A stretch of 7,189 nt of DNA from Thermoplasmatota archaeon (lineage in GTDB: Archaea > Thermoplasmatota > Thermoplasmata > RBG-16-68-12 > JAJISG01). Positions 1,033 to 4,330 of this stretch are shown in pieces (the first letter of the stretch is position 1; each line of letters opens with the position of its first letter). The translations under genes were made by a program, and so were the position numbers. Location: positions 1 through 7,189 of the forward strand of contig JAJISG010000215.1 of NCBI GenBank assembly GCA_022848835.1, written 5' to 3'. The notes beneath the pieces were generated by a model. That model was not told where the DNA came from, ran no database searches, and saw only the letters and a program-made list of their open reading frames with translations.

Positions 1033-2772
1033 ATGAGACCTATATCCCCCTGGAGAAAGCACGGTCCCTTCGCAGTCTTCCTAGGCGCACTCTTCCTTCT
1101 GAGCTACTACCTCCACCAGAACCTCTCCCTCCTCCTCCCGGCCCTCTACTCCGCCCGTGTACTGATACAGCTGGCCCTGGCCGCCAGCGTGATAGCGATC
1201 CTTCGCAACGTCGTCGGCATCAGGGCCTTCGGCACCTTCTCCCCCGTCATCATCGCCCTCAGCATGATCTACACAGGCCTGCCGATGGGACTCCTCCTAT
1301 TCACCGGGGTAATGCTCGTGATGATCCTCACCAGGGCAGCCCTACACGGTCAGCGGATTCAGCAGAGCCACCGCGCCGCCATCATGGTGCTCATGGTGGC
1401 CCTAGTGGCCACCCTGGTGGCGACCCTGGGCTCCAGGTTCGGACAGCCGGAGGCCTCCTTCGTCCTCCTCTTCCCTGTAGTCATCACCTCCTGGGTAGCC
1501 GACCGCTACCTGGAACAGGTGGATAAGGTCGGATGGGGGTCACCGACGAAGGCCCTGCTGTGGACCATACTACTCGTAGCCACCGCCTATCTGGTGATAG
1601 CGCAGGACCCGTTGGTTGACTACTTCACGCAGGAGCCGTTGATGTGGCCGCTGCTCGTCCTGCTCCACTGGTTCCTGGGTACCCGAGTGAGGATGCGGGT
1701 CTCGGAGAAGCTACGCTTCGGACCCCTGAAGAGGCTGGAGGAGGTCGTCCTCAACGGCGGCCTCTCGAAGACCATCCTGACGCTGAACAGGAGGAACAGG
1801 CAATATGTGGACCGCTATAACCCGCCGGAAGTGATGGGGAGCCTCAACAAGTCCAGAGCCAAGGCCCTCATGCTTTTGGAAGGCATCCCGGTGCCGGACA
1901 ACTACCTCCTGGTGTCAAGGAAGGAGGAGATGTCCGAGGCTTCGGAGGTCTTCCTGAAAGCGCGGAGCTTCGCCCTGAAGCCCGCCGACGGCTATGGCGG
2001 CGAGGGGATCGTCATCGTCCATCAACGGGAGGGGGATAGGTACGTAACCGGCAGAGGCCCGTTGCGGCTGGAGGACCTCCTGCAGCACCTGGCCGCCATC
2101 CTGGAGGGGGACTACAACGCGGGGAACCCGGATGAGGCCCTAGTGGAAGCTCTGGTGGAGACCCATCCCGCCCTCAGAGCCATTGCAGTCGAGGGGGTCC
2201 CCGACATTCGGGTTCTCTGTTTCCGCGGCTACCCCATCATGGCGATGCTCCGCCTCCCTACAAGGCAGTCGGACGGCAAGGCCAACCTTCACCTGGGAGC
2301 AGTGGGCGTCGGGGTGGGGATTGGGACGGGAGTCATCACCTTCGCCACGTGGAAGGGCGAGCTTGTAGAACGCCATCCCGACACGGGGACCAGGCTCCTG
2401 GGCTTCCACCTACCCTTCTGGGAGGAGATACTGGAGATCGCGTGTGAGGCCCAGAGGGCGTCCGGCCTCGGGTTCGCCGGGGTGGACGTCGTCCTGGATG
2501 CCCGGAGGGGGCCCCTCGTCCTCGAGGTCAACCGGAGGCCCGGTCTCGACATCCAGAAGGCCAACGGCTGCGGTCTGGTACCACGCCTCGAGGCCATAGA
2601 GGCGCTGCAGGTCATAGAGGAGCCCTCCCAGGTACGCGTCCTCAGGGCCATGGAGATGGACCGTCGGAGATGGAGAGCCCCCGCCTCGCCCACTGCCCCT
2701 CCCGAGGGGCCCATGGCTCCTCCCAGCCACCTCCACGCCCCCCCTCCCTCGCATCCGACGGGGGGCCACTGA
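1033..2772 (+). CDS. Membrane-bound RimK-related ATP-grasp ligase fused to a 7TM (7TM_transglut-type) domain
   Basis: This 579-residue protein has two parts. Residues 1-230 are membrane: one hydrophobic helix at about 12-28, then about seven more (near 41-57, 68-82, 83-101, 114-133, 141-158, 173-190, 203-217). They include LRNVVGIRAFGTFSPV and end in SEKLRFGP, which match the 7TM domain normally fused to inactive transglutaminases. Residues about 245-530 match the alpha-L-glutamate ligase-related ATP-grasp family: LNRRNRQYVDRYNP, an ATP-loop KPADGYGGEGIVIV (Lys316), GVPDIRVLCFRGYP, DGKANLHLGAVGVG, and metal-binding Asp485 with Glu498/Asn500 in LVLEVNRRPGL. Such enzymes use ATP to activate a carboxylate and join it to an amine, typically adding amino acids to peptides or proteins. 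The true substrate is unknown. The active domain should be cytoplasmic. The inactive transglutaminase domain expected between the first TM and the 7TM unit is absent. The tail (548-579) is Pro/His-rich. The subtilisin gene starts one base after the stop. Confidence 0.9.
   Translation: MRPISPWRKHGPFAVFLGALFLLSYYLHQNLSLLLPALYSARVLIQLALAASVIAILRNVVGIRAFGTFSPVIIALSMIYTGLPMGLLLFTGVMLVMILTRAALHGQRIQQSHRAAIMVLMVALVATLVATLGSRFGQPEASFVLLFPVVITSWVADRYLEQVDKVGWGSPTKALLWTILLVATAYLVIAQDPLVDYFTQEPLMWPLLVLLHWFLGTRVRMRVSEKLRFGPLKRLEEVVLNGGLSKTILTLNRRNRQYVDRYNPPEVMGSLNKSRAKALMLLEGIPVPDNYLLVSRKEEMSEASEVFLKARSFALKPADGYGGEGIVIVHQREGDRYVTGRGPLRLEDLLQHLAAILEGDYNAGNPDEALVEALVETHPALRAIAVEGVPDIRVLCFRGYPIMAMLRLPTRQSDGKANLHLGAVGVGVGIGTGVITFATWKGELVERHPDTGTRLLGFHLPFWEEILEIACEAQRASGLGFAGVDVVLDARRGPLVLEVNRRPGLDIQKANGCGLVPRLEAIEALQVIEEPSQVRVLRAMEMDRRRWRAPASPTAPPEGPMAPPSHLHAPPPSHPTGGH
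2737..2766 (+). promoter_or_regulatory. Possible hairpin covering the subtilisin ribosome binding site
   Basis: GCCCCCC at 2737-2743 can pair with GGGGGGC at 2760-2766, a 7-bp all-GC stem with a 16-base loop. The G tract is the only Shine-Dalgarno-like sequence before the ATG at 2774. Ribosomes finishing the ligase gene (stop at 2770-2772) would melt the stem, which would couple subtilisin translation to ligase translation. A second GC stem, GCCCCT/AGGGGC (2695-2710), lies just before it. The pairing is seen in sequence; the role is inferred. Confidence 0.35.
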
Positions 2773-2773
2773 G

Positions 2774-3928
2774 ATGACTCGCGACAGGATCGCAAGGGAT
2801 GTGGTGGCGAGAGTCCGGAAGGCGCAAATAAAGAGAGGGGCGATGGTGGTGGTAGCCCTGCTTGTGGCGGCCCTTCTCATCGCCTTCCTGGCAGCCGCAG
2901 GCGTGATCAGTCTGCCGCTGACGGGATTGCCGATGCGGGAGGACCAGTTGTGGATCTCCCAGCTTACCCAGGCCGACCGGCTCCAGGAACTCGGGTACGA
3001 TGGGGCGGGCGTGACCATATGCCTGGTGGACACGGGGATTGACCTGATACATCCGGACCTAGCTGGCGTTCACATAGTGGCCTGGAGGGACTTCATCAGT
3101 GGTAGAGCTCTGCCCTACGATGACGGGGGTCACGGTACCGCGATGGCGGGGCTCATAGTTGCCGACGGAAGGGCGAAGGGGTTAGCTCCGGGCGCCTCTC
3201 TCATCGTGGCCAAGGCCCTCAGGTCCAACGGTACAGGGAGCTCAGACACCATCGGCGAGGCCATCGGATTCTGTGTGGACCCGAACGGGGATGGCGATGC
3301 GGGCGATGGTGCCGACATCATCTCCCTCTCCCTAGGGGCCCAGAGGACCCCCTTCTCCACAAACGCGGCGTCCAAGGCAGCGGAGGAGGCCACCACGAAG
3401 GGCGTATTCGTGGTCTCCTCAGCGGGAAACGACGGTCGAGAGGATGATGGTGATGTGGGAACGCCTGCCGACACACCCCTGGTTATCGCCGTGGGCTCCC
3501 TCAACCACCAACTGGAAGTGGCCGCCTTCAGCTCCAAGGGCAACAACAGCCCCACGATGCAGAATTCGAGGGTAGACCCCAACCTGAAGCCAGAGTTCAC
3601 ACTGCCGGGGGTCGGTCTCGTCACCACGGCCATGGGCTCCTCCTACACCAGCATGACGGGTACCTCGATATCGGCGGCCCTCCTCTCTGGCCTCCTGGCA
3701 CTCCTCCTCCAGGCCCATCCGAGTTACGCGAAGGTGGGGGCGGAGTCAGTCGTCCAGATGAAGAACATCCTCATGCTCACCAGCCTCCCCCTAGAAGGGC
3801 AGGAGACGCCCCATGACGACTGGTATGGCTACGGGTTGATACAGGTGCATGAGGCTCACCTAATCCTCCTGTCCGGGAACCCGACGATGCTGGGCCCGTG
3901 GGAGCAGGTCGTGAGTATCAATCAGTGA
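2774..3928 (+). CDS. Membrane-anchored subtilisin-like serine protease (S8 family)
   Basis: This 384-residue protein has a short basic N terminus, one membrane helix at about 22-44, and a subtilase catalytic domain from about 58 to 366. The triad is complete: Asp86 in LVDTGID, His120 in GGHGTAMAG and Ser298 in TGTSISAAL. The oxyanion Asn219 lies in SSAGND. An acidic loop DPNGDGDAGDGAD (169-181) resembles the calcium-binding insertions of archaeal subtilisins. The positive-inside rule (R/K before the helix) puts the catalytic domain outside the cell. Only about 14 residues separate the helix from the catalytic domain, so no inhibitory I9-type propeptide is present and the enzyme may not need classical autoprocessing. 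Its start lies one base after the ligase stop, indicating co-translation. It may cut the ligase product or another surface peptide, but that is inference. The family call is very secure. Confidence 0.95.
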   Translation: MTRDRIARDVVARVRKAQIKRGAMVVVALLVAALLIAFLAAAGVISLPLTGLPMREDQLWISQLTQADRLQELGYDGAGVTICLVDTGIDLIHPDLAGVHIVAWRDFISGRALPYDDGGHGTAMAGLIVADGRAKGLAPGASLIVAKALRSNGTGSSDTIGEAIGFCVDPNGDGDAGDGADIISLSLGAQRTPFSTNAASKAAEEATTKGVFVVSSAGNDGREDDGDVGTPADTPLVIAVGSLNHQLEVAAFSSKGNNSPTMQNSRVDPNLKPEFTLPGVGLVTTAMGSSYTSMTGTSISAALLSGLLALLLQAHPSYAKVGAESVVQMKNILMLTSLPLEGQETPHDDWYGYGLIQVHEAHLILLSGNPTMLGPWEQVVSINQ

Positions 3929-3982: not shown

Positions 3983-4330
3983 ATGAACATGGTACAGGTC
4001 GCGGTTCTCCTGCTGGGCATCACACTGGGATGGCTTCTCATCTTCGCCGTCCGTCGCTACAGGGTTCAGTGGGGCGCCTTCGCCAGCTTCATGGCCGTGA
4101 TTCTGGGCATCAGCCTCATCAAGTTCCTCTACGCCTCCGATCTCCTCCCATACTACGCCATCGGCCTCTTCGTGGGATTCTTCGGAAACATGGCCGTGAG
4201 AATGGCGGGTACGATCGTAGGTGGGAAGGTGGGAGAGGGCCTGCTGGAGATCTCCGCCTTTCGCGTGAAGGCTGAGGCGGTTGAGACAGATGACGTGGGA
4301 AGAGGTCAAGAGGGCCAGAGCGAGGCATGA
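3983..4330 (+). CDS. Small integral membrane protein with three TM helices (115 aa), unknown function
   Basis: I do not recognise a named family. Three hydrophobic helices are visible at about 5-23, 29-48 and 55-76. A basic stretch RRYR (24-27) lies between the first two. Small residues are frequent in the third region (GLFVGFFGN, MAGTIVGG), suggesting helix packing and perhaps oligomerisation. The C-terminal about 35 residues are hydrophilic, acidic and probably disordered (ETDDVGRGQEGQSEA); by the positive-inside rule the RRYR loop should be cytoplasmic, placing this tail outside unless the third segment does not span. The start is set by a strong Shine-Dalgarno. The gene end overlaps the following protease gene by 41-50 bases, a sign of translational coupling and a hint that the two products work together, for example by holding the protease at the membrane. 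That partnership is inference. Confidence 0.8.
   Translation: MNMVQVAVLLLGITLGWLLIFAVRRYRVQWGAFASFMAVILGISLIKFLYASDLLPYYAIGLFVGFFGNMAVRMAGTIVGGKVGEGLLEISAFRVKAEAVETDDVGRGQEGQSEA

Follow-up and report, generated by a model that had tools for sequence, protein, structure and literature searches.

An archaeal protein joining a 7TM domain to an ATP-grasp ligase, with a subtilase gene beside it, related to the bacterial Rlo system

The closest described system is that of Pseudomonas aeruginosa in which, as reported, the ligase RloC, the membrane protein RloB, which joins a seven-transmembrane (7TM) unit to an inactive transglutaminase domain, and the secreted retropepsin RloA are separate proteins (PMC12239564). 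According to the same report, cells without the three secreted RloA retropepsins do not grow in low salt and loss of RloB or RloC restores growth; RloA cuts runs of eight or ten glutamates in vitro, not of six; the Rlo genes affect osmotic tolerance, antibiotic sensitivity, biofilm and cell shape; and 96% of RloB hits are in Proteobacteria (PMC12239564). The rescue indicates that the activity of RloB and RloC harms cells without RloA, and it ties both to a process shared with an enzyme whose predicted place is the far side of the membrane; the simplest reading is that RloB and RloC together put something outside that RloA must remove. Here, we analysed a window of 7,189 nucleotides (the whole stretch under study; forward strand of contig JAJISG010000215.1, GCA_022848835.1) from a Thermoplasmatota archaeon, in which a gene for a 7TM domain fused to an ATP-grasp ligase is followed by a gene for a subtilase:

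1033..2772, + strand: fused gene of 579 aa, ATG start, no internal stop (first transmembrane helix, 7TM_transglut domain, ATP-grasp ligase)
1048..1119, + strand: first transmembrane helix, residues 6-29, from AlphaFold2 models
1153..1728, + strand: 7TM_transglut domain, residues 41-232, homologous to the RloB 7TM by Pfam (76 bits) and profile-profile comparison
1789..2601, + strand: ATP-grasp ligase domain, residues 253-523, RimK/ArgX-like
2485..2532, + strand: metal-site residues D485, E498 and N500, from alignment with RimK chain 5zct
2665..2769, + strand: Pro-rich C-terminal tail, ending in low model confidence (AlphaFold2)
2774..3928, + strand: subtilase of 384 aa with a basic N-terminus, a transmembrane helix at about 23-41 and Peptidase_S8 at 77-354

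By profile tests, the fused gene is a 7TM_transglut protein and a RimK-related ATP-grasp ligase in one open frame, as an earlier note on this DNA had claimed. In Pfam, PF14402 (7TM_transglut) matches residues 41-232 with 76.4 bits (E 3e-21; profile positions 56-247 of 248, the first 55 being unmatched) and PF14397 (ATPgrasp_ST) residues 253-523 with 230.5 bits (E 3e-68; positions 1-277 of 278), above the curated cut-offs of 25 and 31.4 bits, respectively; the N-terminal 230 residues, whose failure to match 7TM_transglut would have refuted the note's reading, thus match it clearly. The inactive transglutaminase PF14400 gave no match in the 579-aa protein at E ≤ 1, in line with the proposed absence of that domain. 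TIGR02291, a model of RloC-type ligases that the note had also suggested as a check, reaches 279.2 bits and falls below its curated cut-off of 314.2 (NCBIfam). The 7TM part is, on profile-profile comparison, homologous to the 7TM of bacterial RloB (E 2e-32, starting at residue 41). RloB itself was considered as an identity for the fused protein and rejected, as PF14400 is lacking and the RloB model NF052267 matches residues 35-230 with 54 bits against a cut-off of 900 (NCBIfam). In a control RloB (locus L041; loci are hereafter given L and genomes G numbers), PF14400 (162 bits) lies at 25-184 and PF14402 at 260-505, which is the bacterial layout described in the note, with the transglutaminase between the first helix and the bundle. 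The window's protein follows the same plan but has about 12 residues at this place, between the AlphaFold2 helices 6-29 and 42-61; both the first helix (placed by the note at about 12-28) and the gap of a dozen residues had been read correctly. The G+C content at third codon positions is 0.82 in the 7TM part, 1.00 in the 63-base junction and 0.83 in the ligase, and thus gives no hint that the frame shifts where the two parts meet.

The neighbouring gene matters more than the transglutaminase gap. A single base separates the stop codon of the fused gene from the ATG of the subtilase, which matches PF00082 with 158.6 bits (cut-off 21.8) and contains the Asp, His and Ser motifs. A subtilase lies at the 3′ end of the fusion in all six fusion-bearing genomes of the window's order, in tandem in two (G000, G292) and tail-to-tail in four (G319, G296, G323, G316); it is also found in tandem at L032 and fused on at L033. 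Seven clusters of such triple fusions are the seven best matches to the subtilase part of one of them (797 to 408 bits), after which the score falls to 181 bits for other subtilases; this protein search covered proteins of about 514-1636 aa, a range outside which free-standing subtilases like the window's lie. In the triple fusions, the region of the Pro-rich tail runs on into the subtilase. A hydropathy scan of five of them finds a membrane helix that separates ligase from subtilase, at about 597-631 in four and at 546-564 in P0121, the fifth; this fits a ligase inside and a protease outside. Nine subtilases of the order reach at least 268 bits and the tenth 80; six of the nine adjoin a fusion and three lie elsewhere (in G301, in G297 and, as a second copy, in G292). 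Thus, the link between subtilase and fusion is strong, yet the subtilase group is wider than that. Members at L163, L164 and L165 have no 7TM-ligase beside them; at L163 and L165, and beside the non-adjacent copies of G301 and G292, the neighbour is a gene that by eye is FtsZ-like.

The fusion is not peculiar to this contig. Of 854 relatives in the database, each of the best 120 listed contains the ligase domain; in 115 of these the 7TM domain is present as well, and the remaining five are entries of 360-472 aa, two of which are named partial. A single open frame encodes both domains in 24 distinct loci: six from the window's order, three from elsewhere in the Thermoplasmatota phylum, L032 (Terrabacteria), L033 (Bathyarchaeota) and L034 (Thaumarchaeota), whose labels come from metagenome bins and may be wrong, six from the Heimdall phylum and six from the Haloarcula phylum. 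These loci, with 115 of the 120 best relatives listed, rule out an assembly error that had joined two genes, a concern raised in the earlier note. The distribution is patchy, PF14402 being found in 4 of 389 genomes of the window's phylum, 6 of 37 of its order, 4 of 246 of the Haloarcula phylum and 6 of 148 of the Heimdall phylum. In bacterial loci the 7TM and ligase genes are separate, as they are in the archaeal-labelled L110 (Methanosarcinales). When 58 loci are placed on a tree, the 23 fused and the 35 unfused ones fall on either side of a branch that has 100% ultrafast bootstrap, so that on this sample one change between fused and separate suffices. Lack of the transglutaminase is not tied to fusion: a short 7TM protein of 217-224 aa, with a separate ligase gene alongside, is encoded at seven bacterial loci, four of them labelled Moraniibacteriota. 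The L096 protein, the one that was scanned with Pfam, matches PF14402 and lacks PF14400. Two bacterial ligases of about 800 aa carry a C-terminal extension (L083:7682-10108 and L089:1982-4378).

An AlphaFold2 model of the fusion, built from 48 aligned sequences, has a mean pLDDT of 89.7 and a pTM of 0.86; the 7TM part modelled alone has a higher mean pLDDT, 94.4. The modelled helices span residues 6-29, a short 31-40, 42-61, 70-81, 83-104, 111-135, 141-166, 169-189 and 204-218, with the ligase after them. To judge from the positive residues found at the N-terminus and behind the final helix, both ends are probably inside, and the predicted topology has eight membrane helices, N- and C-terminal ends and ligase inside, and the subtilase outside. 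Positions 58, 114 and 228 are basic in all 44 aligned 7TM domains, archaeal and bacterial; at the presumed inner side they could receive an acidic chain, or could instead merely reflect the positive-inside rule. For the ligase, the closest solved folds in a comparison with the predicted model are RimK and ArgX. Residues D485, E498 and N500, invariant across the 48 sequences (the window's own among them), align with D248, E260 and N262 of RimK chain 5zct, presumably the Mg ligands of that enzyme. An ATP-grasp fold, as taken from the predicted model, with a D/E/N metal site makes the ligase RimK-like; it shares the fold and these residues with the RimK, ArgX and LysX ligases and differs from them in being fused to a membrane part, with sequence similarity to RimK chains detected only in residues 467-517.

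These data invite comparison with RloABC. The two systems share a homologous 7TM, an RloC-type ligase (TIGR02291, 279 bits) and an adjoining peptidase gene; the window's subtilase has a predicted N-terminal export or anchor helix and D/H/S motifs, its outward orientation being a prediction. Here, however, 7TM and ligase form one chain, the transglutaminase domain is absent, the host is archaeal and the peptidase is a subtilase (Ser) instead of a retropepsin (Asp). We think that the fusion works like RloB plus RloC. In the mechanism that we propose, and to which we give a probability of about 0.5, the membrane-bound ligase would, at the inner face of the membrane, join amino acids into a peptide or poly-amino-acid chain, the 7TM bundle would hand it outward, and the subtilase, predicted to face outward, would release, trim or degrade the product. 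The sequence provides both domains in one chain, the metal-site residues, the protease motifs, the homology of the 7TM part to RloB and the adjacency and fusion of the subtilase; the role of the 7TM as conduit, the peptide-like nature of the product and the action of the subtilase on it are inferred. A synthase passing a peptide through its membrane part to an outer enzyme is an economical reading of an archaeal fusion that makes the first two parts one molecule and a triple fusion that adds the outer enzyme. The earlier note had taken the fusion as direct evidence for one membrane-bound enzyme; it is good evidence of physical and functional coupling, though not direct evidence of one enzyme.

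Several observations weigh against the proposed mechanism. The window's subtilase domain is acidic (35 D+E against 16 K+R), as it is at least slightly in every listed sequence, and an acidic loop, which by comparison with subtilisin may be part of the substrate pocket, is present in 10 of 17 distinct subtilase sequences; its motif was not found in L033 and in six of the seven triple-fusion clusters. As judged from the sequences, this acidic make-up argues against poly-glutamate as the product: set against the basic channel of RloA, it would mean that the product is not poly-glutamate or that the subtilase has another job. Moreover, no solved structure is a clear relative of the 7TM bundle, and in other families of the window's phylum ligases of this kind occur without a 7TM domain in the surrounding DNA (L006-L014 and L107, complete open frames of 352-380 aa; the ligase of L015, cut by the contig, was left out of this judgement). 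The acidic subtilase, its three non-adjacent homologues in the order and the six loci of the Haloarcula phylum (three named haloarchaea), where no subtilase, transglutaminase-like or toroid partner was seen, albeit with only 0.6 kb visible downstream at L039, also speak for the subtilase being a linked passenger, serving for example general envelope quality control, beside a fused ligase that works alone, as apparently in haloarchaea. We regard this as unlikely, given that adjacency is kept in spite of a different gene orientation in four of six genomes and that the subtilase is fused into one chain in seven clusters.

The ligase might instead be a membrane-anchored modifier that adds amino acids to the end of an envelope or membrane protein, the 7TM serving only to dock this substrate and the subtilase maturing or removing the modified proteins. 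ArgX acts on a carrier protein, which counts for this view. So does RimK, with ArgX the nearest solved fold, which acts on the C-terminus of a ribosomal protein, and post-translational poly-glutamylation is kept open by the mBio authors (PMC12239564). However, no shared candidate substrate gene was seen beside the fusion by eye, no systematic test having been made, and modification of cytosolic proteins alone does not explain outward-looking partner enzymes; we hold the modifier for doubtful, with perhaps one chance in a few. Appreciably less probable is a sensor in which the 7TM responds to the membrane or osmotic state and gates the ligase, the fusion shortening the signal path and the product staying inside. 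The osmotic and cell-shape phenotypes of Rlo mutants (PMC12239564) and the effect of an RloB relative on membrane vesicles in Shewanella (PMC12096838) would agree with it, but it leaves unexplained how secreted RloA offsets the activity of RloB and RloC, and why a subtilase is fused behind a membrane helix.

Outside the window's order, other enzymes take the neighbouring place. Among the 16 fused loci without an adjoining subtilase, nine have a transglutaminase-like gene and nine a toroid. The fusions of G072, G027 and G018, three genomes from the window's phylum, are followed by the gene of a Transglut_core-type protein with membrane helices and preceded by a large toroid gene. Pfam confirms these neighbours in G072 and G018, and our own profiles do so in G027, where the contig end cuts both genes; a transglutaminase-like neighbour is also present at L034. 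In the Heimdall phylum, a toroid is fused N-terminally to the 7TM-ligase and a further toroid gene lies upstream in six of six loci, and a transglutaminase-like gene is downstream in five, the sixth contig ending there. Loci such as L122, L124, L034 and those of Asgard thus share the 7TM-ligase fusion with the window and differ in the next gene and, in Asgard, in the N-terminal toroid. The catalytic Cys column of the transglutaminase-like proteins holds Ser in L122:7717-8817, L034:1868-2971 and L124:5323-6420 and Cys in five Asgard copies; the G027 copy ends before it. Proteins of 1364-1431 aa combining an alpha-alpha toroid with the 7TM-ligase occur at the Asgard loci L098, L105 and L149-L152. 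At L037:8683-9435, in Haloarcula japonica, a membrane protein with a DUF1508 match directly follows the fusion. In the window's draft genome (94% completeness), neither Transglut_core nor the retropepsin PF05618 had a match; in the two proteobacterial loci checked, a PF05618 retropepsin gene precedes rloB. The suggestion of a stripped-down archaeal form holds in that the fusion is mainly archaeal and has no transglutaminase within the protein, but it is incomplete: in other archaeal lineages with the fusion a transglutaminase-like gene stands next door, and in the window's order a subtilase takes that place. On our reading, the outer processing enzymes are exchangeable beside a membrane-bound ligase.

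In general plan, the system also resembles the PgsBCA / CapBCA poly-gamma-glutamate synthases, which consist of a ligase, a small membrane protein and outer enzymes. PgsB belongs to another ligase fold, and the likeness is an analogy only: CapC (PF14102) is not among the 20 families matched by any of the 48 sequences at E ≤ 5, where weak matches were possibly filtered, and none was found in six genomes. Downstream of the subtilase, two genes, given for context, occupy the same place in G292, of the same family:

3983..4330, + strand: small membrane protein, 115 aa
4281..5270, + strand: NAL1-like protein of trypsin fold (PF25608, 34.9 bits; cut-off 27)

PF25608, the NAL1 N-terminal domain, is a family named after a plant leaf gene and is found here in an archaeon. 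An open reading frame at 1-555 on the − strand, running off the window's edge, has a hydrophobic stretch and a weak F5/8 type C match (18.9 bits; cut-off 28.2).

None of the papers listed by our literature searches was seen to describe an archaeal 7TM-ligase fusion or its subtilase partner. Relative to the Rlo-type system, the locus is a variant that is new in having 7TM and ligase in one chain, a subtilase partner and an archaeal host. More tentatively, and at odds of roughly one in three, it may belong to a new archaeal class of one-chain synthase-exporters of peptide polymers, sometimes with their own extracellular protease fused, whose outer enzyme is exchanged across bacteria and archaea among three unrelated folds (retropepsin, transglutaminase-like protein plus toroid, and subtilase). 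Such machines would give Thermoplasmata, Haloarchaea and Asgard archaea a surface or osmotic polymer that has stayed hidden. That 7TM and ligase are a single unit is what the archaeal fusion argues for, and the triple fusion sets the subtilase on the same chain, so that the question of what RloB and RloC make, and where the product goes, could be tested on one or two polypeptides in purified form. The system also extends beyond Proteobacteria, and the fusion suggests a common mechanism, open to test, in which the outer enzymes are exchangeable.
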